A stretch of DNA of 64,000 nucleotides, taken from Mycolicibacterium insubricum. GTDB lineage: Bacteria > Actinomycetota > Actinomycetes > Mycobacteriales > Mycobacteriaceae. Under the pieces are notes generated by a model. The model had not been told where the DNA came from, searched no databases, and saw nothing but the letters and a program-made list of their open reading frames with translations. Positions 38,518 through 53,781 of this stretch are shown here, in pieces. A program made the translations under genes and the position numbers. Each line of letters starts with the position of its first letter. Position 1 is the stretch's first letter. The stretch is from the NCBI RefSeq assembly GCF_010731615.1, contig NZ_AP022618.1, forward strand, positions 2,356,001 to 2,420,000, in the 5' to 3' direction.

Positions 38518-40341
38518 GTGGCAACGGCTAAGACGACGGTGCATCCGTACCGCTGGCTGGCACTGTTCCTGGTCCTGCTCATCGGCCTCTACCTGCTGGT
38601 ATTCCTGACCGGGGACAAGCAGGGGAAGCCGAAGCTGGGCATCGACCTGCAGGGCGGCACCCGGGTGACACTGACCGCGCGCACCGCGGACGGTTCGAAG
38701 CCATCGCCCGATGCGCTCAAGCAGGCCCAGCAGATCATCGAGACCCGCGTCAACGGTCTCGGCGTGTCGGGTTCGGAAGTCGTCATCGACGGCGAGAACC
38801 TGGTGATCACCGTGCCCGGCCCGGACGGTCGCGAGGCCCAGAACCTCGGACAGACCGCCAAGCTGTACATCCGCCCGGTGGTGCAGTCCTACCCGGTGAC
38901 CCCGCAGGAGCAGCCACAGGGCGAGGGCGCACCCGCCGGGACGCCCTCGGGTGAACCGGCGGCACCGGCCGGACAACCCGCCGCACCCGCGGCACCGGCC
39001 GAACAGCCGACCGCACCCGCGGCGCCGGTCGCTCCCGCAGAACAGCCGGCCGCCCCGGCCGCGCCCGCGGCACCGTCCGCGCAGCCGCGGCCCTACCCGC
39101 TGGACCCGGCCCCCACACCCACCCCGAACCCCGAGCCGGCAGCGCCAGCCCCGGCCGCACCCGCGGCCGGCGCACCCACCGCCGCCCCGGCCCCCGGCGC
39201 CCCGGCGACCCCGGAGATGCCCGATCCGCGCAAGAGCCGCGCCGAGCTGATCCAGCAGTACAAGCAGCTGCGCCAGAGCACCAACCCGCTGACCCTGTAC
39301 CTGGCCGCCCAGGTCACCGCGCAGCTCTGCGGTCACGACGACCCGCTGGCCGGCAACGACGACCCGGCGTTGCCGCTGGTGACCTGCTCCCAGGACGGCA
39401 AGACCGTCTACGTGCTCAAGCCGTCGATCATCAGCGGTGAGGACATCGCCGACGCCAGCTCCGGGCTGGATCAGCAGAGCTCCCAGTACGTCGTCAACCT
39501 GAAGTTCAAGGGCGCCGCCGTCGACGTCTGGGGCGACTTCACCGCCGCCAACCCGGGTACCCAGACCGCCTTCGTGCTGGACTCCCAGGTGGTCAGCGCC
39601 CCCGCGATCCGGGAGGCCATCCGCGGTGGCAACACCCAGATCAGCGGCAGCTTCACCGCGACGACGGCCAAGGAACTGGCCAACGTGCTGAAGTACGGTT
39701 CACTGCCGCTGTCCTTCGAGGCGTCGCAGGCGGAGAACGTCTCCGCCAGCCTGGGTATGTACGCGCTGCGCGCCGGCCTGATCGCCGGTGCCGTCGGCCT
39801 GGCGCTGGTGCTGCTGTACTCGCTGCTGTACTACCGCGCGCTGGGCCTGCTGGTCGCGGTGTCGCTGGTGGCCTCCGGCGCCATGGTGTACGCCATCCTG
39901 GTGCTCTTGGGCCGGCACATCGGATACACCCTCGACCTGGCCGGTATCGCCGGTCTGATCATCGGTATCGGTATGACCGCCGACTCGTTCGTGGTGTTCT
40001 TCGAACGCATCAAAGACGAGATACGCGAAGGCAGATCGTTCCGGTCGGCCGTACCGCGCGGTTGGGCCCGCGCCCGCAAGACCATCGTCTCGGGCAACGC
40101 GGTCACCTTCATCGCCGCCGCCGTGCTCTACGTTCTGGCCATCGGCCAGGTCAAGGGCTTCGCCTTCACCCTGGGCCTGACCACCATCCTCGACGTCCTG
40201 GTGGTGTTCCTGGTGACCTGGCCGCTGGTCTACCTGGCCAGCAAGACCCAGATCTTCGCCAAACCGGCCTTCAACGGACTGGGCGCGCTGCAACAGGTCG
40301 CCCGCGAGCGGCGGGCCGACGCCGCGACGGGACGGAGGTAA
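38518..40341 (+). CDS. secD: Protein translocase subunit SecD
   Basis: 607 aa. Works with SecF and uses proton motive force to pull exported proteins out of the Sec channel. Seen: first membrane helix ([18 protein letters not shown]), D-L-Q-G-G-T-R-V, the first part of the P1 periplasmic domain to about residue 125, a Pro/Ala-rich insertion (129-238) as in actinobacteria, the second part of P1 (241-400), and the C-terminal five-helix membrane domain with [20 protein letters not shown], which carries the conserved proton-path Asp. GTG start with GAGGAG. The stop is 4 bp before secF. Residues 241-400 have a near copy in the paralogue at 49595-50869. Confidence 0.97.
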
Positions 40342-40345
40342 CCCG

Positions 40346-41776
40346 GTGACCGAAGACAACGGCACCCGGCGCGCCAAGCACGCCGCCGGCGACGATCCGA
40401 TCGAGGAGAGCGTGAAAGACGCCGATACCGTGGCGGTCACCACGACGGACGACGAGCCGCCGATCAGTCGCGCGGTGATCGACACCAGCGCCGTCGCCGA
40501 CGAAGACGCCACCGCCGACGCTGACGAGGCCGACGACGCTGACGACGGCAAGGATGCGCCCGCGAAGTCGAAGCCGGCCAAGCCGGATGCCGACAGCCCG
40601 CACCACGGCTTCCTGAGCCGGCTGTACACCGGTACCGGCGGCTTCGAGGTCATCGGCAAGCGCCGCATGTGGTTCATGATCGGCGGGGCGATGGTGCTCA
40701 TCGCCATCGCGAGCATCGCGATCCGGGGCTTCACCTTCGGCATCGACTTCGCCGGCGGCACCAAGGTCTCAATGCCCCAGGGCGCCGGGGCCGACCAGAT
40801 CAGCACCAGCCAGGTCGCCGACGTCTTCACCCGCAGCGTCGGCAGCGCACCGCAGTCGGTGGTGGTGGCCGGCAGCGGCAACTCGGCGACCGTGCAGATC
40901 CGCGCCGAGGCACTCGACACCCAGCAGACGCAGAAGCTGACCCAGGACCTGTTCGACGCCTTCCACCCGAAGAACCCCGACGGCCAGGTCAGCAAGGACG
41001 CCATCAGCACCTCGGACGTGTCTGCGACCTGGGGCGGGCAGATCACCAAGAAGGCCCTGCTGGCGCTGGTGGTGTTCGTCGCGATCGTGACGGCGTACAT
41101 CACCCTGCGCTATGAGCGGTACATGGCGGCCGCGGCCATGGCCACCATGTTCTTCGACCTGATCGTCACCGCCGGGGTGTACTCGATGGTCGGTTTCGAG
41201 GTGACCCCGGCCACCGTCATCGGCCTGCTCACCATCCTCGGCTTCTCGCTGTATGACACGGTGATCGTGTTCGACAAGGTCGAGGAGAACACCGAGGGCT
41301 TCGAGCACTCCACCCGTCGTACCTACGCGGAGCTGGCCAACCTGGCCGTCAACCAGACCTTCATGCGCTCGATCAACACCAGCCTCATCTCGGTGCTGCC
41401 CATCCTGGCGCTGATGGTGGTGGCCGTCTGGCTGCTCGGTGTCGGCACCCTGCAGGATCTGGCACTGGTGCAGCTGGTCGGCGTCGTCGTCGGCACGTAT
41501 TCCTCGATCTTCTTCGCCACGCCGCTGCTCGTCGCGATGCGGGAACGCACCGATCTGGTGCGCACGCACACCCGCCGGGTACTCAATCGTCGGGCCAAGG
41601 CCGCGGGGAAGGGCTCGGCGAAGTCGGCGGCGGATTCCGGCGACACCGACGACGAGTCCGGAGACGCGGACGCCGGCGAGAAGACACCGGTCGGCGCCGG
41701 TACCGGGACGTCACGACCGTCGCGGCCCAGCCGTCCCGGGCGGCCCACCGGTAAGCGCAACCCGCGCCGGGCCTGA
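40346..41776 (+). CDS. secF: Protein translocase subunit SecF
   Basis: 476 aa. Seen: an acidic, Asp/Ala-rich cytoplasmic N-terminal extension (about 1-75), first helix MWFMIGGAMVLIAIASIAI, the GIDFAGGTKV motif, the P1-like extracytoplasmic domain, and a membrane domain with TILGFSLYDTVIVFDKVEEN (conserved Asp) and NQTFMRSINTSL. The C-terminal tail is long, Ser/Ala/Arg-rich and basic. GTG start at 40346. Partner of SecD in the SecDF-YajC complex. Confidence 0.97.
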   Translation: MTEDNGTRRAKHAAGDDPIEESVKDADTVAVTTTDDEPPISRAVIDTSAVADEDATADADEADDADDGKDAPAKSKPAKPDADSPHHGFLSRLYTGTGGFEVIGKRRMWFMIGGAMVLIAIASIAIRGFTFGIDFAGGTKVSMPQGAGADQISTSQVADVFTRSVGSAPQSVVVAGSGNSATVQIRAEALDTQQTQKLTQDLFDAFHPKNPDGQVSKDAISTSDVSATWGGQITKKALLALVVFVAIVTAYITLRYERYMAAAAMATMFFDLIVTAGVYSMVGFEVTPATVIGLLTILGFSLYDTVIVFDKVEENTEGFEHSTRRTYAELANLAVNQTFMRSINTSLISVLPILALMVVAVWLLGVGTLQDLALVQLVGVVVGTYSSIFFATPLLVAMRERTDLVRTHTRRVLNRRAKAAGKGSAKSAADSGDTDDESGDADAGEKTPVGAGTGTSRPSRPSRPGRPTGKRNPRRA

Positions 41777-43947: not shown

Positions 43948-44016
43948 GCGCTCCGCGGTGACCGCCCGGGAGGGAATATCCTGGAGCCGCGCCGGTTCTT
44001 GTGACGGGAGGTGGGC

Positions 44017-46401
44017 ATGAGCGATGATCCCGCGCTGATGAGCGATACCGACTCGTCGGCTGTGCCCCCGGACGTCCTGGACCAGCCGGTACCGGCCACC
44101 GCTGCGACCCCCGCGGAGCCGACCGAGCCCTTGCGGGCCGCCACCAGCGCCTCTCGGCGGGTCCGTGCGCGGCTGGCCCGGCGGATGACCGCCCAGCGCA
44201 ATGCCTTCAACCCGGCGCTGGAACCGCTGGTCACGGTGCACCGGACGATCTACCCCAAGGCCGACGTCGCGATCCTGCAGCGCGCCTACAACATCGCCGA
44301 GGAACGGCACGCCTCACAACTGCGCAAGTCCGGCGATCCCTACATCACCCATCCGCTGGCGGTGGCCAACATTCTCGCCGAGCTGGGCATGGACACCACC
44401 ACGCTGGTCGCCGCGCTGCTGCACGACACCGTCGAGGACACCGGGTACTCGCTGGAGCAGCTGACCGCCGAATTCGGTGAGGAGATCGGTCATCTCGTCG
44501 ACGGGGTGACCAAGCTGGACAAGGTGGTGCTGGGTAGCGCCGCCGAGGGCGAGACCATCCGCAAGATGATCATCGCGATGGCGCGTGACCCCCGGGTGCT
44601 GGTGATCAAGGTCGCCGACCGGCTGCACAATATGCGCACCATGCGGTTCCTGCCCCCGGAGAAGCAGGCGCGCAAGGCCCGGGAGACGCTGGAAGTCATT
44701 GCCCCGCTTGCCCACCGGCTGGGGATGGCGACGGTCAAGTGGGAACTCGAGGACCTGTCGTTCGCCATTCTGCATCCCAAGCGGTACGACGAGATCGTTC
44801 GCCTGGTGGCCGACCGGGCGCCGTCGCGGGACACCTACCTGGCCAAGGTGCGGGCGGAAATCGTTGCCACCCTGGCCGCCTCGCGGATCACCGCCACAGT
44901 GGAGGCCCGACCCAAACACTACTGGTCGATCTACCAGAAGATGATCGTCAAGGGCCGCGACTTCGACGACATCCACGATCTGGTCGGGGTGCGGATCCTG
45001 TGCGACGAAATCCGGGACTGCTACGCCGCCGTCGGTGTGGTGCATTCGCTGTGGCAGCCGATGGCCGGCCGGTTCAAGGACTACATCGCCCAGCCCCGCT
45101 ACGGGGTGTATCAGTCGCTGCACACCACGGTGATCGGCCCCGACGGCAAGCCGCTGGAAGTGCAGATCCGCACGCGCGATATGCACCACACCGCCGAATA
45201 CGGGATCGCTGCGCACTGGCGGTACAAGGAGGCCAAGGGCCGCAACAACGTTCTGCACCCGCACGCGTCCGCCGAGATCGACGACATGGCCTGGATGCGG
45301 CAGCTGCTGGACTGGCAGCGGGAGGCTGCGGACCCCGGCGAATTCCTGGAGTCGCTGCGTTACGACCTGGCCGTGGCCGAGATCTTCGTGTTCTCGCCCA
45401 AGGGCGACGTGTTCAACCTGCCGGCCGGGTCGACGCCGGTGGACTTCGCCTACGCGGTGCACACCGAGGTGGGGCACCGGTGCATCGGCGCGCGGGTCAA
45501 CGGCCGTCTCGTCGCGCTGGAACGCAAGCTGGAAAACGGCGAGGTCGTCGAGGTTTTCACCTCCAAGGCGCCCAATGCCGGGCCGTCGCGGGACTGGCAG
45601 GGGTTCGTCGTCTCGCCGCGGGCCAAGGCCAAGATCCGGCAGTGGTTCGCCAAGGAGCGCCGCGAGGAGGCGCTGGAGGCCGGCAAGGAGGCGATCGCCC
45701 GGGAGGTGCGCCGCGGCGGACTGCCGTTGCAGCGGCTGCTCAACGGCGAGTCGATGGCGACCCTCGCCCGTGAGCTGCGCTACACCGACGTGTCGGCGCT
45801 CTACACCGCCGTGGGGGAGGGGCACATCTCCGCGCGGCACGTCGTGCAGCGGCTGGTGGCCCTGCTCGGCGGCGACGACGCCGCGGCCGACGAGATCGCC
45901 GAGCGGTCAACGCCGTCGAATTACCCTGTGCGCCAGCGCAGCAACGACGACACCGGTGTCGCCGTCCCCGGGGCTCCGGGCACGCTGACGAAGCTGGCGA
46001 AGTGCTGTACCCCGGTTCCCGGCGACGCCATCCTGGGCTTCGTGACCCGCGGCGGCGGCGTCAGCGTGCACCGCACCGACTGCACGAACGCCGCTGCGCT
46101 GCAACAGCAGGCCGAGCGGATCATCGACGTCAAGTGGGCGCCGGGACCGGGTTCGGTCTTCCTGGTGGCGATTCAGGTGGAGGCGCTCGACCGGCACCGG
46201 CTGCTGTCCGACGTCACCCGGGTGCTGGCCGACGAGAAGGTCAACATCCTCTCGGCGTCGGTCACCACGTCCGATGACCGGGTGGCGATCAGCCGCTTCA
46301 CCTTTGAGATGGGCGACCCGAAGCACCTGGGCCACGTGCTCAACGTGGTGCGCAACGTCGAGGGCGTCTACGACGTCTACCGCGTGACCTCCGCCGCCTG
46401 A
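44017..46401 (+). CDS. rel: Bifunctional (p)ppGpp synthetase/hydrolase
   Basis: 794 aa long RSH enzyme making and degrading (p)ppGpp during starvation. Seen: N-terminal HD hydrolase with His98, H136-D137 and ED 140-141 ([14 protein letters not shown]); synthetase domain with [12 protein letters not shown] and [22 protein letters not shown] domain starting near [20 protein letters not shown]; the helical and zinc-finger region with [13 protein letters not shown]; and a C-terminal ACT domain. Both active sites are complete. ATG 44017 is chosen for its GGAGG at 5 bp; GTG 44011 is in frame two codons upstream. The first copy of a 62-bp tandem repeat starts inside its last codons. Confidence 0.97.
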
Positions 46402-46684: not shown

Positions 46685-46844
46685 AGCTAGCAAGTTCGAA
46701 TAACCGCCTCCGTGGAGGCTACGCCCGCGCTACGTCATCGCCAGGCTCGACCGTCCCGCATCGGGGTGGATGATCGGAGCCGTTGCACTATTCACCCCGA
46801 TACGCGCACCGTGTGCGCCGGTCGGGGAAGTTCGGGTGGTCGTG

Positions 46845-48440
46845 ATGACTGCTGCGGTTTGCGAGGTGACGGGTTCTGCCGTTGGTCTCGATGTGTTTCT
46901 GGATGAGTTCGACGGGTTTGTCGATCGGCTCATCGATCAGCTTGCCCCGGTGCCGGTTTCGGTGCCGGCCGGGGCTGCGGGTTCGGTCGGGCTCGCGCCG
47001 CCGGTCTGTATCCCGGTCCCAGCGGCGACGGCCGCCGGTGCCGACATCGACCGCGACGCCACCGAGAGCCACCACGGCGGCGGCCGCACGCTATTTCATC
47101 TGTTGGATGCCCCTGCGGGTGTGGTTGATGAGCCGCGGCTGCTGGCGGTGCTGAAAACCGGTGTGGCGGCGGTGAATCTGTTGCACCACCTACTCGCCAC
47201 CGCGACCGTAGCGGCCGAACGCGCCGGAATCCCGACGCGGCGGCATCTGCGTTGCGGGGCGGATCTGCTGACCGGGCTCGGGATGGCCCCGGCGGCGGCC
47301 TACCGGCTGGCCCGCGTGGGCCGCGCCGTCCCCGAACTGCCCGCCCTGACCCGAGCCGCGCGGGTCGGTGGGGTGGGGGTGGAGTTCGCCGACGCGGTCG
47401 GCAAAGGCCTGTCCCACATCCGCAGCCGCATCGAACTGACCGACGCCGACGCGGCCGAGGTCATCAGGAAATTGATGGTGCAGTCCACCCCGGCGGAGGT
47501 CAACCGTAGAGCCCGCGGCATCGCGATCGCCCGCGTCCGGGCACAGCAAGCGGCCGGTGCCACCGGCACCGACCCTGATGCCGACGCTGGGGTGCCGGTA
47601 GCCGAGAACGCCGACCTCAACACCATGACGCTGACCCACAACGACGAAGGCCGGGTCACTGCGACCCTGGATCTGGACGTGGTGACCGGCGAGGAACTAC
47701 TCGCCGCCCTGGACCCGCTGTGCCGCCCCGTCGCAGAACCCGACGGCTCCCGCGATGCCCGCCCACCGAGTCGGCGCCGCGCCGACGGGTTCGGCCAACT
47801 GCTGCGCGACTACCTCTCCGGATCCACCCGACCCCTCTCCGGCGGAGTGCTCCCCCACGTCTCGCTGATCCGTCCGATACCCGCCGTGACACCGGTTGCC
47901 GCCGGTGACGGCGGGCAATTGTGTGGCCACCGTCCCGCCGACCCGTATGTGGGCCCCGATCCCAGCGCCGGATGGTCCGACGAGTTCGTCGACATGCTCG
48001 GGTACACCGGGCCGATCAGCGCGGCCACCGCGGACCTGATCACCTGTGACTGCACCCTGGATGTGATTCATGTCGACGGCAACGGCGCCCCACTGGACGT
48101 GGGGCGCAGCCAACGGTTGTTCCCGCCGCACATCCGCCGCGCCCTGATCGCCCGAGACCGCGGCTGCGCCTTCCCCGGCTGCGGACGCCACCCCTCCTGG
48201 TGCGACGGCCACCATATCCGCCCGTGGGACCCCGACGGGGTGACCAGCCTGGATAACGGCGTGCTGCTGTGCCGGCGCCACCACACGATGATTCACCACT
48301 ACGGCTGGCAGGTCTACCTCGGCACTGACCGGCACCCCTGGTTCATCCCGCCCCCGGATCCGGCCCACCCCAACCGCCCGCGGGAGCACCTGCGCTCCCA
48401 CACCCGACGCACCCTCACGGCGCTCCCCGCCGCGGCGTAA
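46845..48440 (+). CDS. DUF222-HNH endonuclease protein (13E12 repeat family)
   Basis: About 531 aa. Seen: an N-terminal DUF222 domain of long helices (FHLLDAPAGVVDEPRLLAVL, then GLGMAPAAAYRLARVGRAVP and TPAEVNRRARGIAIARVRA), a variable middle, and a C-terminal HNH nuclease with RDRGCAFPGCGRHPSWCDGH (paired Cys for zinc), HHIRPWDPDG and NGVLLCRRHHTMIHHYGW. This architecture is that of the multicopy 13E12 family of actinobacteria, thought to be mobile or selfish. The ATG at 46845 lacks a strong ribosome binding site; GTG 46842 is equally possible. It lies in an island between rel and ppiB, behind a LexA-like box. Confidence 0.85.
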   Translation: MTAAVCEVTGSAVGLDVFLDEFDGFVDRLIDQLAPVPVSVPAGAAGSVGLAPPVCIPVPAATAAGADIDRDATESHHGGGRTLFHLLDAPAGVVDEPRLLAVLKTGVAAVNLLHHLLATATVAAERAGIPTRRHLRCGADLLTGLGMAPAAAYRLARVGRAVPELPALTRAARVGGVGVEFADAVGKGLSHIRSRIELTDADAAEVIRKLMVQSTPAEVNRRARGIAIARVRAQQAAGATGTDPDADAGVPVAENADLNTMTLTHNDEGRVTATLDLDVVTGEELLAALDPLCRPVAEPDGSRDARPPSRRRADGFGQLLRDYLSGSTRPLSGGVLPHVSLIRPIPAVTPVAAGDGGQLCGHRPADPYVGPDPSAGWSDEFVDMLGYTGPISAATADLITCDCTLDVIHVDGNGAPLDVGRSQRLFPPHIRRALIARDRGCAFPGCGRHPSWCDGHHIRPWDPDGVTSLDNGVLLCRRHHTMIHHYGWQVYLGTDRHPWFIPPPDPAHPNRPREHLRSHTRRTLTALPAAA

Positions 48441-48689: not shown

Positions 48690-49598
48690 TCAGGCCGGCT
48701 CGGTGCCCAGCGCGCGCAGCGCGATGCGAGTGGCCTCGGCGATGGTTGGCTTGCCCTGGTCCGACGCCCGGTCGTCGGGAGCGGTGAGTGCCGCGATGAC
48801 GATTGGTGCTCGGTCGGGTGGCCAGAGGACGGCAATGTCGTTGGCCTGTCCGGCGAAACCGCTGCCGGTTTTGTCACCGACTGTCCATCTCGCCGGAACC
48901 CCGGCTCGGATCGTCTCCCCGCCGGTGGTATTCGCCTTGAGCCAGCCGGTCAGCAGCTCGCGTCCGTGTGGATCCAAACCGTCATCGAGAGCTACTCGGG
49001 TAAGGGTGGAAACCAGCTGCGCGGGGGTAGAGGTGTCCTTGTCGCCGTCGGGATAGTTCAACGCCGTTTCGTTGCGGTCCATGCGGGAGATGTTGTCGCC
49101 CAGCGTTCGAACGAACTCCTGGGTTACTGCCGGCCCGCCGAGGGTTGCGATGAGCAGGTTCGCGGCGGTGTTGTCGCTCTGGGTGATCATGGCTTCGCAT
49201 AGTTGGGCCACCGTCATCCCGTCGTACAGGTGGGTCGCGGTGACCGGGGCCCACTCCAGGATGTCGGCCGGGGTGTAGTGAATCGTGCGGTCCAGCAGAC
49301 CGGCCTCGGTCAGTCGGCGGTGCAACACCGTCGCAGCGATGAAGGTCTTGACCGTCGAGCACATCAGGAAGCGTTCGTCACCGCGGTGACTGACCGTGGA
49401 TCCGTTGGCGGTGTCGAGGGCGAATAACCCGAGCTTTCCGCCGAATCGCCGTTCCAACGCGCCGAGTTCGGCAGTGGCCCGATCGGCTGCGCCGGCGTCC
49501 GAGCCGGGGGAGTCTGGCCGGCTTGGGGTGCACGCGAGAACCGCTCCGCCGATGCCCGCGAGGACTCCGGTGAGGACGGCGCGGCGCGACGTTGTCAA
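48690..49598 (-). CDS. bla: Class A beta-lactamase lipoprotein
   Basis: 302 aa. Hydrolyses beta-lactams by an active-site serine. Seen: a twin-arginine-like start (TTSRRAVLTGVLAG) with lipobox VLAC (Cys23), then S81-T-V-K84 (the SxxK pair), S141-D142-N143 (SDN loop; mycobacterial BlaC has a Gly in the third place), Glu177 with Asn181 in NETALN (omega loop), and K243-T244-G245. All catalytic residues are present. The start is TTG 49598, the only start available, and it overlaps the stop of the SecD-like gene (TTGA), so expression is probably coupled to that gene. It is unlike the chromosomal blaC locus by context. Confidence 0.93.
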   Translation of the reverse strand: MTTSRRAVLTGVLAGIGGAVLACTPSRPDSPGSDAGAADRATAELGALERRFGGKLGLFALDTANGSTVSHRGDERFLMCSTVKTFIAATVLHRRLTEAGLLDRTIHYTPADILEWAPVTATHLYDGMTVAQLCEAMITQSDNTAANLLIATLGGPAVTQEFVRTLGDNISRMDRNETALNYPDGDKDTSTPAQLVSTLTRVALDDGLDPHGRELLTGWLKANTTGGETIRAGVPARWTVGDKTGSGFAGQANDIAVLWPPDRAPIVIAALTAPDDRASDQGKPTIAEATRIALRALGTEPA

Positions 49599-50869
49599 CC
49601 GCTCGACGGTCCAGGCGCGGGGAACCAGTTGTCCGCCATGGCGACTGGACCGTCGGCCGGCAGTCGTGGCCTCCGGCGCACGATCGTCACGAGCACGCCG
49701 ACGGCGATCAGGGCGATGAGCACCCCGGCTCCCACCAGCGTGTACCGCAGCGGAGCCGAAGCGGGTTGGCCGGCAAGGGTTGTCGGCTGTGTCGACTGCT
49801 CGATCAACATCAGCGGCAGGGCACCGGTGCTCAGGGTAGACGCGAGCTCTTTCGCGTCTGTCGCGGTGAACGAGCCGCTGACCAGAGTGGTGCCGCCGCG
49901 GATGGCCTCCCGGATCATCGGTGCGGTGACCACCTGTGAGTCCAGCACGAAGGCGGTCTGGATGCCCGGGTTGGCCGCGGTGAAGTCGCCCCAGACCACC
50001 GCGGCGTTGCCATTGAACTTCAGGTTGACGACGTATTCGCCGGACTGCTGGTCGAACCCCGAGGTCGCCGCGACCACATCGGTGCCCGAGATGATCGACG
50101 GCTTGAGGATGTAGACGGTCTTGCCGTCCTTCGCGCAGGCCACCAGCGGGAGCGCCGGGTCGTCGTTGCCGGCCAGCGGGTCGTCGTGACCGCAGAGTTG
50201 CGCGGTGACCTGGGCGGCCAGGTACAGGGTCAGCGGGTTGGTGCTCTGGCGCAGTTTCTTGTACTGCTGAATCAGCTCGACGCGGTCGATGCCGCTGCCG
50301 CTACCGATCTGGTCCGCGGGTGCTCTCGAATCGTCGGTCACCGGATAGGTATGCACCACCGGCCGGATATACAGCCGCCCGGTGGGGATCACCCGCGCGA
50401 TTGCCTCGGCGCTGCCGTCGGGAGCGATCACCGTCAGCGTGGTGCCGTCGACCCGGACATCCGAATGCGGCAGCTCCAGATCGGCGATCCGCCGGCCGAG
50501 CGTCGTCGCGGTCTGTTGCAGCGCGTCCTCGGTCGGGGCGCTGCCGTCGGCGGTCGCCGTGCTGAAGGTGAGCTGCACTCCGGGTTGCCCGGGCGTCCCA
50601 GCCCAGCGATCCGCGGTGGCCAGCACCACGGTCGCGTACAGCGCTGCCAGTGCGATGATTGCGACGGTGCCGAGATAGCGCCGCAGCCACGACGGCCGCG
50701 TCGAGAGCGGGTAGATCGGGTCGCCGCCATACTCCGTGCCGCCGTGGGCTGCCGGGGGATACCCGGCACCGGGATGACCGGCGCCCGGGTACCCGGGCGG
50801 GACGGGAGCCGGCGGCGAAAACCCCGGCGGCGGATATCCCGCCGGCGGATCTGGTCGTTCGTCGGTCAT
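49595..50869 (-). CDS. SecD paralogue reduced to its extracytoplasmic domain
   Basis: 424 aa. Seen: a Pro/Gly/Tyr-rich cytoplasmic tail (1-45), a membrane helix (about 64-86), a region aligned with the first half of SecD P1 (98-178, ending in GRLYIRPVVHTYPVT), a segment 196-355 that is roughly 75-80 percent identical by eye to SecD 241-400, and one C-terminal helix (about 376-397) with a short tail. The long Pro/Ala insertion and the remaining membrane helices of SecD, with the proton-path Asp, are missing. It cannot act as a normal SecD channel partner; it may bind Sec substrates outside the membrane or dock on SecF. It precedes the beta-lactamase lipoprotein with overlapping TTGA. Confidence 0.88.
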   Translation of the reverse strand: MTDERPDPPAGYPPPGFSPPAPVPPGYPGAGHPGAGYPPAAHGGTEYGGDPIYPLSTRPSWLRRYLGTVAIIALAALYATVVLATADRWAGTPGQPGVQLTFSTATADGSAPTEDALQQTATTLGRRIADLELPHSDVRVDGTTLTVIAPDGSAEAIARVIPTGRLYIRPVVHTYPVTDDSRAPADQIGSGSGIDRVELIQQYKKLRQSTNPLTLYLAAQVTAQLCGHDDPLAGNDDPALPLVACAKDGKTVYILKPSIISGTDVVAATSGFDQQSGEYVVNLKFNGNAAVVWGDFTAANPGIQTAFVLDSQVVTAPMIREAIRGGTTLVSGSFTATDAKELASTLSTGALPLMLIEQSTQPTTLAGQPASAPLRYTLVGAGVLIALIAVGVLVTIVRRRPRLPADGPVAMADNWFPAPGPSSG

Positions 50870-50934: not shown

Positions 50935-51828
50935 TCAGTCGACGCGAACCGACTTGATCTTCACGTCGGTCTTGGGTTTGCCGTCGGGCGTGCCGTTCGC
51001 CGTCCCCTCGGCGCCGATCTTGTCCAGCGTGGCCAGACCGGTCTCGTCGATGGTGCCGAACACCGTGTACTGCGGCGGCAGCTGCGAGTCCTTGTACACC
51101 AGGAAGAACTGGCTGCCGTTGGTGTTCGGACCGGCGTTGGCCATGGCCAGGGTGCCGCGCGGGTAGGTCACCGGCTTGTCCAGGTTCGGGCTGCCGGCCG
51201 GGTACTGGTCGGTGGGGTACTCGTTGCCGAACTTGTAGCCGGGACCGCCGGATCCGGTGCCGCCGGGATCGCCGCACTGCAGCACCGACAGGCTCGGGCT
51301 GGTGGTCAGCCGGTGGCACGGGGTGTCGTCGAAGTAGCCCTGCTGGGCGAGGCTGACGAAGCTGTTCACCGTGCACGGGGACTTCGCGTTGTCGAGCATC
51401 AACCCGACGTTGCCCGCGGTGGTCGACATGCTGACGCTGACCTGGGCCGGGTCGGTGGGCACCTTGCCGGTACGCGGCGGCTTGTTCGCCTTGGCCGCCG
51501 ACTCCTTCACCGTGGCGGGATACTGGCAGTTGCCGCCCAGGTTCGCCGACGGTGTGAATTTCGGCAGGGACCCGGTCCCGGCGTTTTCCGGCTCGGCGTT
51601 GGCGGTCGCCTCGGCGACGGTGGTGGGGTCCACCTCGGCGCTGTTGCCCGGGTTGTCCTCCCGGTGCAGCCACCAGAACGTCCCGCTGGCGACGGCCGCC
51701 ACCACCACGGCCAGCACGGCCGCCCCGATGGCCAGCGTTCGTTGCCGCTTGGCCTTGGCCTCGCGGCGTTCCAGCTGCCGGTCCAGCTTGCGCTTGGCCG
51801 CGGCACGTCGTTGCTCATTGGTCGGCAT
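50935..51828 (-). CDS. ppiB: Membrane-anchored peptidyl-prolyl cis-trans isomerase (cyclophilin)
   Basis: 297 aa. Seen: a highly charged cytoplasmic N-terminus (NEQRRAAAKRKLDRQLERRE), one membrane helix (about 32-50), a linker, and a cyclophilin-type domain with NSFVSLAQQGYFDDTPCHRL, FGNEYPTDQ, GTLAMANAGPNTNGSQFFLV and YTVFGTIDETGLATLDKI. It would catalyse proline isomerisation of exported proteins at the outer membrane face. ATG 51828. It is followed by the SecD paralogue after 65 bp on the same strand, so folding, export-like and beta-lactamase functions may share a transcript. Confidence 0.95.
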   Translation of the reverse strand: MPTNEQRRAAAKRKLDRQLERREAKAKRQRTLAIGAAVLAVVVAAVASGTFWWLHREDNPGNSAEVDPTTVAEATANAEPENAGTGSLPKFTPSANLGGNCQYPATVKESAAKANKPPRTGKVPTDPAQVSVSMSTTAGNVGLMLDNAKSPCTVNSFVSLAQQGYFDDTPCHRLTTSPSLSVLQCGDPGGTGSGGPGYKFGNEYPTDQYPAGSPNLDKPVTYPRGTLAMANAGPNTNGSQFFLVYKDSQLPPQYTVFGTIDETGLATLDKIGAEGTANGTPDGKPKTDVKIKSVRVD

Positions 51829-51895: not shown

Positions 51896-52525
51896 GTGCT
51901 GATCTCGGGGTTCGCCACCGGACTGTTCGACACCAACTGCTACCTGGTCGCGCAGGCGGCCTCCGGGCCGGTGCTGGTGGTCGATCCGGGCGACGACGCG
52001 GTCGGCACCTGCGAGTACTACTTCGCCGCCAACGACTGGGCGCCTGCCGCGGTCCTGCTCACCAACGCCCGGCCCGGCCACGCCGCTGCCGCCTACGATC
52101 TGGCCGCCGGTTGGGATATCCCCGTCTACCTGCACCGGGGGGACCGCGATCTGCTCGCCGAAGGCGATTACGGCGAGCCCGACGACGTCCGCGAGGTGGC
52201 CGACGGCCAACAGCTCGACATCGGCGGTGTCGAGGTGAGCGTCGCGCACCTCGGGTCGCCGACCCCCGGCTCGGTGGCCTACCGGGTGACCGCCGACACC
52301 GACGAAGGCCCGGTACCCGTAGTGTTTTCCGGTGACACCCTGCTTCTCCGCGCTGTCGGGCACGACTGTGACGGCGCCGGCGACCCCGACCCGGACCTGG
52401 TGGCCGCCGTCGCGGCGAAACTGATGGTGCTCGACGAGAAGACCGTGGTCATGCCGGGCCACGGCAGCAGTACCAGCATCGGCGCCGAACGCCGCGTCAA
52501 CCCGCACCTCAAGGATTTGCTGTGA
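51896..52525 (+). CDS. Metallo-beta-lactamase-fold protein with degenerate metal site
   Basis: 209 aa, at the position of the glyoxalase II-like protein next to hisS in mycobacteria. Seen: fold-typical [38 protein letters not shown] (Asp147 kept) and [17 protein letters not shown] (His189 kept). The T-H-x-H-x-D-H metal motif is T-N-A-R-P-G-H (56-62): two His and the Asp are gone, only His62 remains. The following PGHT loop is G-S-P-T, so that His (now Pro122) is also lost. Hydrolase activity is unlikely. GTG 51896 matches the family start; ATG 51887 is in frame. The stop overlaps hisS. Confidence 0.85.
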
Positions 52526-53781
52526 GCCAGACCTTCAAGGCCCCCAAGGGCATCCCGGACTATCTGCCCCCGGAATCGGCGGTCTTCGTCACGGTGCGCG
52601 ACACCCTGTTGGCCACCGCCCGGCGCGCCGGCTACGGCGACATCGAGCTGCCGGTCTTCGAGGACACCGCGCTGTTCGCCCGAGGAGTCGGCGAATCCAC
52701 CGACGTCGTCTCCAAGGAGATGTACACCTTCGCCGACCGCGGCGACCGCTCGGTGACGCTGCGCCCGGAGGGCACCGCCGGGGTGATGCGCGCGGTCATC
52801 GAGCACGGCCTGGACCGGGGCGCGCTGCCGGTCAAACTCTGCTACGCCGGACCGTTCTTCCGCTACGAACGCCCGCAGGCGGGCCGCTACCGCCAGCTCC
52901 AACAGGTCGGGGTAGAGGCCATCGGGGTCGACGACCCGGCCCTGGACGCGGAGGTCATCGCCGTCGCCGACGCCGGGTTCCGCGCACTCGGCCTGACCGG
53001 GTTCCGGCTGGAACTCACCTCGCTCGGCGACGACACCTGCCGGCCCGCCTACCGCAACCTGCTGCAGGAGTTCCTGTTCTCGCTGCCGCTGGACGATGCG
53101 ACCCGGGCCCGCGCCGAGATCAACCCGCTGCGCGTGCTCGACGACAAGCGGCCCGAGGTGCGCGAGTTGACCGCCGCCGCCCCGGTGATGCTCGACCACC
53201 TCTCCGACGAGGCCGCCGAACACTTCCAGACCGTGCGCGCGCACCTCGATGCCCTCGGGGTGCCCTACGTCATCAACCCGCGGATGGTGCGGGGCCTGGA
53301 CTACTACACCAAGACCACCTTCGAGTTCGTGCACGACGGGCTGGGCGCCCAGTCCGGGATCGGCGGCGGCGGCCGGTACGACGGGCTGATGGCACAGCTC
53401 GGCGGCCAGGAACTCTCCGGCATCGGTTTCGGGCTCGGGGTGGACCGCACTCTGCTGGCGCTGCGCGCCGAGGGCGTCGATCCGGCGCCGGCGGCGCGGG
53501 TGGACGTCTTCGGGGTGCCGCTCGGTGCGGCGGCCAAGCTGGAACTGGCCCGGATCGGCGCGGAGCTGCGCGCGGCGGGGGCCCGGGTGGATCTGGCCTA
53601 CGGCGATCGTGGGATCAAGGGCGCCATGCGCGCGGCCGACCGCTCGGGCGCGGCGATCGCGCTGGTCGCCGGGGATCGCGACATCGAGGCCGGGACCGTG
53701 GGCGTGAAACTGCTGGCGACCGGAGAGCAGATCGACGTACCGGTCTACGAGGTCGTCGCCGTGGTGCTGGCCCGCCTCTAA
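52522..53781 (+). CDS. hisS: Histidyl-tRNA synthetase
   Basis: 419-aa class II synthetase. Seen: motif 1 region [37 protein letters not shown], motif 2 [14 protein letters not shown] with the following [10 protein letters not shown], the two HisA-type signatures ([14 protein letters not shown] and [11 protein letters not shown]), motif 3 [15 protein letters not shown], and the anticodon-binding domain. Normal length. GTG start overlaps the stop of the metallo-beta-lactamase-like gene. The stop is 4 bp from the convergent monooxygenase. Confidence 0.98.

Follow-up and report, generated by a model that had tools for sequence, protein, structure and literature searches.

Background

The closest described relative of the protein reported here is SecD (TIGR01129; PDB 3aqp, 5xan), with which it shares the order of a first transmembrane helix (TM1), a P1 domain made of base and head, and a second transmembrane helix (TM2). 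Part of its head is almost identical to that of the SecD of its own genome. SecD in addition has TM3-6, an LGxDLxGG motif after TM1, the region of the TM4 aspartate and a Pro/Ala insert, all of which are missing here.

To our knowledge, the reception and folding of exported proteins outside the mycobacterial membrane is a poorly known process. PpiD, like SurA, is a parvulin-type protein. In one study (PMC11470409), the P1 head of E. coli and Vibrio SecD is described as having a substrate pocket and as touching the membrane-anchored PpiD. Another (PMC9987972) describes SurA as binding the holo-translocon, with its parvulin-type isomerase domains predicted on the P1 head. The present locus likewise brings together a P1 head and a prolyl-isomerase-type protein; the P1 domain of those cases (PMC11470409, PMC9987972) lies within a full SecD, whereas ours is a free P1 domain with a cyclophilin as its putative partner. 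For M. tuberculosis PpiB, chaperone-like activity is reported (PMC4794191). Second SecDF copies of Streptomyces coelicolor are also extra SecD relatives in an actinobacterium; they are homologues of SecD/SecF, some fused and others separate, rather than P1-only proteins (PMC4139356). Among the papers listed in a library search on SecD paralogues and on P1-only or truncated SecD, none describes a free-standing P1 family.

Data sets and methods

The window analysed is the whole stretch of 64,000 nucleotides from Mycolicibacterium insubricum (GCF_010731615.1, contig NZ_AP022618.1, positions 2,356,001 to 2,420,000). Free-standing P1 proteins were searched for with a profile built from 11 of them, run on 248 and then on 396 genomes of the genus. 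At E <= 1e-105, a cut that could miss weaker members, 35 of the 396 genomes gave a match, the window included. One of these (G240, loci L045 and L074) was SecD itself and was dropped, leaving 34; two weaker free P1 proteins (G072, G045) were added from the 248-genome search for a total of 36.

For all 35 genes other than the one in the window, the surrounding locus was fetched. Genes at the loci were called by a simple codon-score script, and their starts and gaps are approximate; in the window the script truncated the beta-lactamase gene. The phylogenetic trees were made without L132, which carries an internal stop, and the head tree was computed with FastTree. Protein searches scored the 8000 candidates with most words in common, and the best 120 of 1058 and of 884 matches were listed.

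The locus

Table 1. Features of the window (positions in the window; aa, amino acids; nt, nucleotides).
Feature	Position	Strand	Remarks
secD	38518..40341	+	True secD; encodes 607 aa including the Pro/Ala insert; probable source of the converted stretch in the P1 gene
Part of secD matching codons 201-239 of the P1 gene	~39253-39369	+	
secF	40346..41776	+	Named from sequence and its place after secD
relA	44011..46401	+	Left edge of the variable interval; named from sequence and gene order
DUF222/HNH gene	46770-48440		Between relA and the beta-lactamase gene
Class A beta-lactamase gene	48690..49598	-	Likely lipoprotein, blaMAB-like; TTG start
Free-standing SecD-P1 membrane protein gene	49595..50869	-	Intact open reading frame, 424 aa, ATG start
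Wider head region, P1 codons 193-343	49841..50293	-	376/453 nt (83%) identical to own secD
P1 tract, codons 201-239	50153..50269	-	114/117 nt identical to own secD; third positions 37/39
Membrane-anchored cyclophilin gene	50935..51828	-	Upstream of the P1 gene
hisS	52522..53781	+	Right edge of the variable interval; named from sequence and gene order

The P1 gene (Table 1) lies about 9 kb from secD and secF. Two observations of the first-pass annotation on its surroundings are confirmed: it follows the membrane-anchored cyclophilin gene on the same strand, the gap being measured here as 65 nt, and its stop codon (49595-49597) shares 4 nt (TTGA) with the TTG start of the beta-lactamase gene. 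A scan of the junctions between the cyclophilin, P1 and beta-lactamase genes detected neither a sigma-70-like promoter nor a terminator-like site, the terminator scan being near chance (3 terminator-like sites found against 1.6 expected). By its position we take the cyclophilin to be PpiB/Rv2582-like.

The gene content of the interval between relA and hisS differs between genomes. The DUF222/HNH gene of the window, which we presume to resemble the mycobacterial REP13E12 type, was not found by tblastn in the other fetched relA-hisS intervals; the one match, in L082, is partial and lies on the far side of hisS.

The genome is a single contig of 4.58 Mb and holds the SecDF_P1_head domain at three places, namely secD, the P1 gene and a small protein of ~217 aa. 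This small protein (L004:1135-1788, genome ~2574.3-2575.0 kb) adjoins an RluD-like gene and, by eye, has a single N-terminal helix.

Architecture and family assignment of the P1 protein

The protein is laid out as a Pro-rich N-tail (residues 1-60), TM1 (66-84), base (~93-186), head (~195-356), TM2 (379-397) and a short C-tail. These two helices were found by hydropathy; TM3-6 and, by motif, the TM4 Asp region are absent, i.e. this is not a six-helix SecD. A profile of 11 free-standing P1 proteins aligned with mycobacterial SecD along the entire TM1-P1-TM2 stretch (E 5e-105, 41% identity), with the Pro/Ala insert of SecD missing from the free proteins. Hydropathy and profile alignment thus bear out the earlier description of one N-terminal helix, P1 and one C-terminal helix without the channel helices and the Pro/Ala insertion.

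Pfam SecDF_P1_head was the sole match above cut-off (residues 247-352, E 7.2e-27), and Pfam recognised no signalling domain. The score against the NCBIfam SecD model TIGR01129 was 121.7 bits, about half of the cut-off of 244.4. The head matches solved SecDF P1, the base partly and weakly (15.4 bits).

Motif counts separate the free P1 proteins from SecD. The LGxDLxGG motif is present in all 13 SecDs from the loci and in 105 of the 106 SecDs among the listed protein matches, and it is absent from the free P1 proteins of both sets (0/36 and 0/12). A loose regular expression for the acidic motif of TM4 matched every long SecD (13/13 from the loci, 106/106 among the listed protein matches) and one free P1 protein (1/36 and 0/12, respectively). 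The protein of the window has the features of the free family: TM1-P1-TM2 without the insert, a tryptophan after TM1 (W89), which occurs in 32 of 35 P1 rows of the alignment and in none of the 15 SecD rows having a residue there, and Cys226 and Cys245. The two cysteines lie around a conserved loop by the head and are invariant in P1 and SecD alike (35/35 and 22/22 rows); they possibly form a disulfide in both.

The databases hold members of the free P1 family, named by domain only. Among the matches listed, proteins of the same kind are entered at NCBI as 'SecDF P1 head subdomain-containing protein' (Mycobacterium deserti P0008, M. aquaticum P0122) and also as 'preprotein translocase subunit SecD' (M. 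wolinskyi P0025); entries of this type are 352-367 aa long with PF22599 as their only listed Pfam domain. The member in the window differs from the domain-named entries by its own-SecD-like head and the beta-lactamase gene downstream. Its nearest named match among the best 120 of 1058 listed is 96% identical and comes from M. insubricum. A chance open reading frame is ruled out by the homology to SecD, the relatives in many genomes and this 96% match.

Comparison with the SecD of the same genome

The P1 protein is 70% identical to the SecD of its own genome over residues 195-390, and the likeness is distributed very unevenly. By segment, identity is 30% in TM1, 36% in the base, 90% in residues 195-246, 74-76% in residues 247-356 and 21% in TM2. 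The DNA follows the same course, with 40% identity to secD in TM1, 53% in the base and 46% in TM2, against the values given for the head in Table 1. The longest exact run shared with own secD is 56 nt, whereas none of 20 other SecDs shares a run of more than 22 nt. In the head tree the P1 protein stands beside its own SecD with a support of 1.00.

The tract of codons 201-239 is best read as gene conversion, which is the simplest reading of these identities, and the wider region of codons 193-343 reads as an older or larger conversion. Over residues 247-356 the SecD of the window remains SecD-like (76-87% identical to M. fallax SecD), which favours the direction from secD to the P1 gene. In residues 195-222 both copies of the window are unusual, and conversion of this part may have run either way.

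The first-pass annotation had called the protein a cut-down SecD paralogue. The relation to SecD holds; a plain cut-down copy does not fit, as the protein is a mosaic of a base and helices of the free type and a head like that of its own SecD. A recent truncated copy of secD is disfavoured for the same reason, since identity to own SecD is no more than 21-36% across TM1, base and TM2, and these parts cluster with free P1 proteins.

Likeness of the head to own SecD in other genomes

Identity between P1 and own SecD was compared with identity after shuffling the ownership of the SecDs. In 15 genomes with both genes fetched, the head was on average 67.6% identical to own SecD against 61.1% after shuffling, a difference reached in none of 5000 shuffles; it persisted when the window was left out (66.7 against 62.0, 0/5000). 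The base gave no excess for own SecD (38.1 against 37.8, 1908/5000; 12 genomes with data). For TM2 there was a slight excess (33.8 against 32.4, 75/5000), which faded when the window and L075 were removed from a set of 21 genomes (578/4000). The result for the head holds in these 21 genomes, from which L132 was left out for its internal stop, and extends to the codon choice at identical residues of 195-356 (66.8 against 62.7, 0/4000).

Strong recent conversion in every genome was considered and does not fit, as the window alone has a clear case of a long recent tract. In the head tree, P1 and own SecD come together for the window and otherwise for L075 alone, and in just 5 of 21 genomes does P1 share a longer exact run with own SecD than with any other SecD. 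An older, partial homogenisation of the head across genomes is likely but not proven, and relatedness and composition may contribute to the likeness.

Distribution of the family

Free P1 genes occur in 34 of the 396 sampled genomes of the genus, the window counted, with the two weaker members in addition. Of the 36 genes, 24 lie in the relA-hisS interval and 9 upstream of rpsL, one is fused to a kinase (L135) and two are elsewhere (L069, L076). By hydropathy, 33 of the 35 other proteins have both helices; the remaining two, L130 (316 aa) and L132 (internal stop), are truncated with one helix each. The gene is thus neither confined to this genome nor generally frame-broken elsewhere, the situation that the first-pass annotation would have taken as a sign of a decaying duplicate. 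Seven close pairs, not all independent, gave dN/dS of ~0.18-0.44 and show signs of purifying selection.

Pro-rich N-tails are found in many members of the family. In the group upstream of rpsL (L068, L070, L071, L072, L073, L128, L131, L132, L136), P1 stands beside rpsL-rpsG-fusA-tuf and in most cases has a TetR-like gene on its other side, the gene names being assigned by eye. A Ser/Thr kinase domain is fused to SecDF_P1_head in L135:9156-10982 (G533) and in protein P0009; the L135 fusion, with two helices, resembles a receptor-like kinase bearing a SecD arm.

Trees of the base and helices place the protein of the window among the free P1 proteins and apart from its own SecD, with low backbone support (24-49 in the base tree), and the P1 proteins of L075 and L076 fall nearest to SecD in the base tree. 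For these two reasons, a single origin of the free P1 family is not established. Beyond the genus, no free P1 protein was recognised when 200 genomes of the order were searched at E <= 1e-75, a cut that distant free forms could escape. Eight order-level matches outside the genus lie in open frames of 522-659 aa and are taken to be ordinary SecD, judging by frame length only.

Cyclophilins beside the P1 gene

In the 24 genomes with P1 in the relA-hisS interval, the window included, the P1 gene is co-oriented with and adjoins cyclophilin genes, two in each of 23 genomes and one in the window. Twenty P1-less genomes, chosen with one large contig, were used for comparison: the first cyclophilin was present in all 20 intervals and the second in 15, so that the linkage between P1 and cyclophilin is partly positional. 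The second cyclophilin was present in 23 of 24 intervals with P1 and 15 of 20 without (Fisher p 0.08), the window being the sole P1-bearing interval that lacks it. By tblastn, no cyclophilin was found in the 12 loci with P1 elsewhere (9 upstream of rpsL, 3 other). The P1 and cyclophilin genes may just occupy the same permissive place. The second cyclophilin paralogue (L053-L067, L075, L077-L096, L125-L127, L129, L130, L133, L134) is frequent in the genus.

The beta-lactamase neighbour

The beta-lactamase scored 427 bits against NCBIfam NF041113 (blaMAB), below the cut-off of 575, and 288.3 against the generic class A model NF033103, above the cut-off of 200. Close relatives (E <= 1e-95) were found in 10 other genomes among 396, which we infer to be of the M. 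abscessus-chelonae group. In all ten (L097-L103, L137-L139) the enzyme follows directly after the cyclophilin in the relA-hisS interval, with no P1 gene there. It is therefore wrong to regard this neighbour as unique to the species. In the 23 other genomes with P1 in the relA-hisS interval, tblastn found no such enzyme in the fetched 15-20 kb, and the remaining P1 loci examined lack it as well. More distantly related class A enzymes are widespread (165 of 248 genomes of the genus at E <= 1e-40); the four next-closest enzymes that were checked (50-54%) are at other places.

The N-terminus of the enzyme (TTSRRAVLTG...VLAC), read by eye, has the pattern of a twin-arginine signal with a lipobox in the usual definition of these motifs, which suggests export by Tat rather than Sec. 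Eight of the ten relatives have RR and a lipobox-like cysteine; in the other two the match covers the enzyme from residue 39 onwards, and no RR is seen in the part shown. The beta-lactamase is probably incidental to P1, a passenger of the variable interval and at most one of many clients.

Discussion

We tentatively favour the reading of the P1 protein as a motor-less, membrane-tethered SecD arm that would serve as a passive holder of exported chains or as a docking site for a prolyl isomerase. In its sequence, two helices anchor the P1 base and head, and the proton-conducting ones are missing. The head would keep the job of the SecD head, binding exported chains at their exit from SecYEG, and would offer a docking face to a prolyl isomerase chaperone; beside the translocon the arm could then work passively, as a holder or ratchet, and the anchored cyclophilin would be its partner in folding. 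A place in the SecDF motor is unlikely because the proton path and the LGxDLxGG motif are missing and the helices have diverged, and the protein is thus unlikely to substitute for SecD there. The existence of a free P1 family, together with its frequent adjacency to cyclophilins, makes an accessory role in folding or export reasonable. A further possibility, which we hold doubtful, is a split SecD in which the P1 arm and membrane cyclophilins would form a receiving station free of ATP and protons, the head being matched to SecD by repeated conversion.

The first-pass annotation had proposed a dedicated helper for the export of the neighbouring beta-lactamase, in which the cyclophilin would take care of folding. 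The overlapping reading frames on one strand speak for this, as does the position of the enzyme after the cyclophilin in ten relatives too; it is nevertheless highly improbable, because those ten carry the enzyme without P1, no other P1 locus has it (including the 23 further relA-hisS genomes) and its signal is Tat-like. The beta-lactamase is therefore dropped from the proposed unit, and what stands of it is a reasonable accessory role beside the cyclophilin, a neighbour of P1 in 24 genomes. Very unlikely, and already disfavoured, is also a non-functional, drifting secD duplicate kept alive through chance gene conversion. The patchy distribution, the internal stop of L132 and the shortness of L130 would agree with drift, but both helices are kept in nearly all other members, dN/dS is low in the seven pairs, and base and helices are unlike SecD and cluster with free P1.

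Two other explanations give the arm a regulatory task. A decoy or regulator of SecDF, in which the motor-less arm binds SecF or SecY and tunes SecDF activity, would account for the part of the head that is near-identical to SecD, for the common TM1-P1-TM2 order and for its location near secDF in the majority of the 24 genomes. We regard it as unlikely, as TM1 and TM2, the would-be SecF-facing surfaces, are among the segments least like own SecD, and LGxDLxGG is absent throughout the family. The arm might also be a sensor of the state of export or of the envelope, with P1 as an extracytoplasmic ligand-binding module signalling via cytoplasmic tails, as in the kinase-fused forms. The two kinase fusions, the non-export context of the nine genes between a TetR-like gene and rpsL, and the Pro-rich N-tails point in this direction; the protein of the window, however, has no recognised signalling domain, and its head grew more, not less, similar to own SecD, and a sensor is rather doubtful here.

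The likeness to own SecD is specific to the head, which points to the head as the likely main bearer of a function common to P1 and SecD, ahead of base and helices. If a split SecD with a converted head were true, the P1 and SecD arms would recognise the same clients or partners. Recognition of the P1 family corrects a database entry named 'SecD'. A conserved P1-only protein parts the substrate-binding arm of SecD from the proton motor, and thereby offers a natural test of the arm alone.
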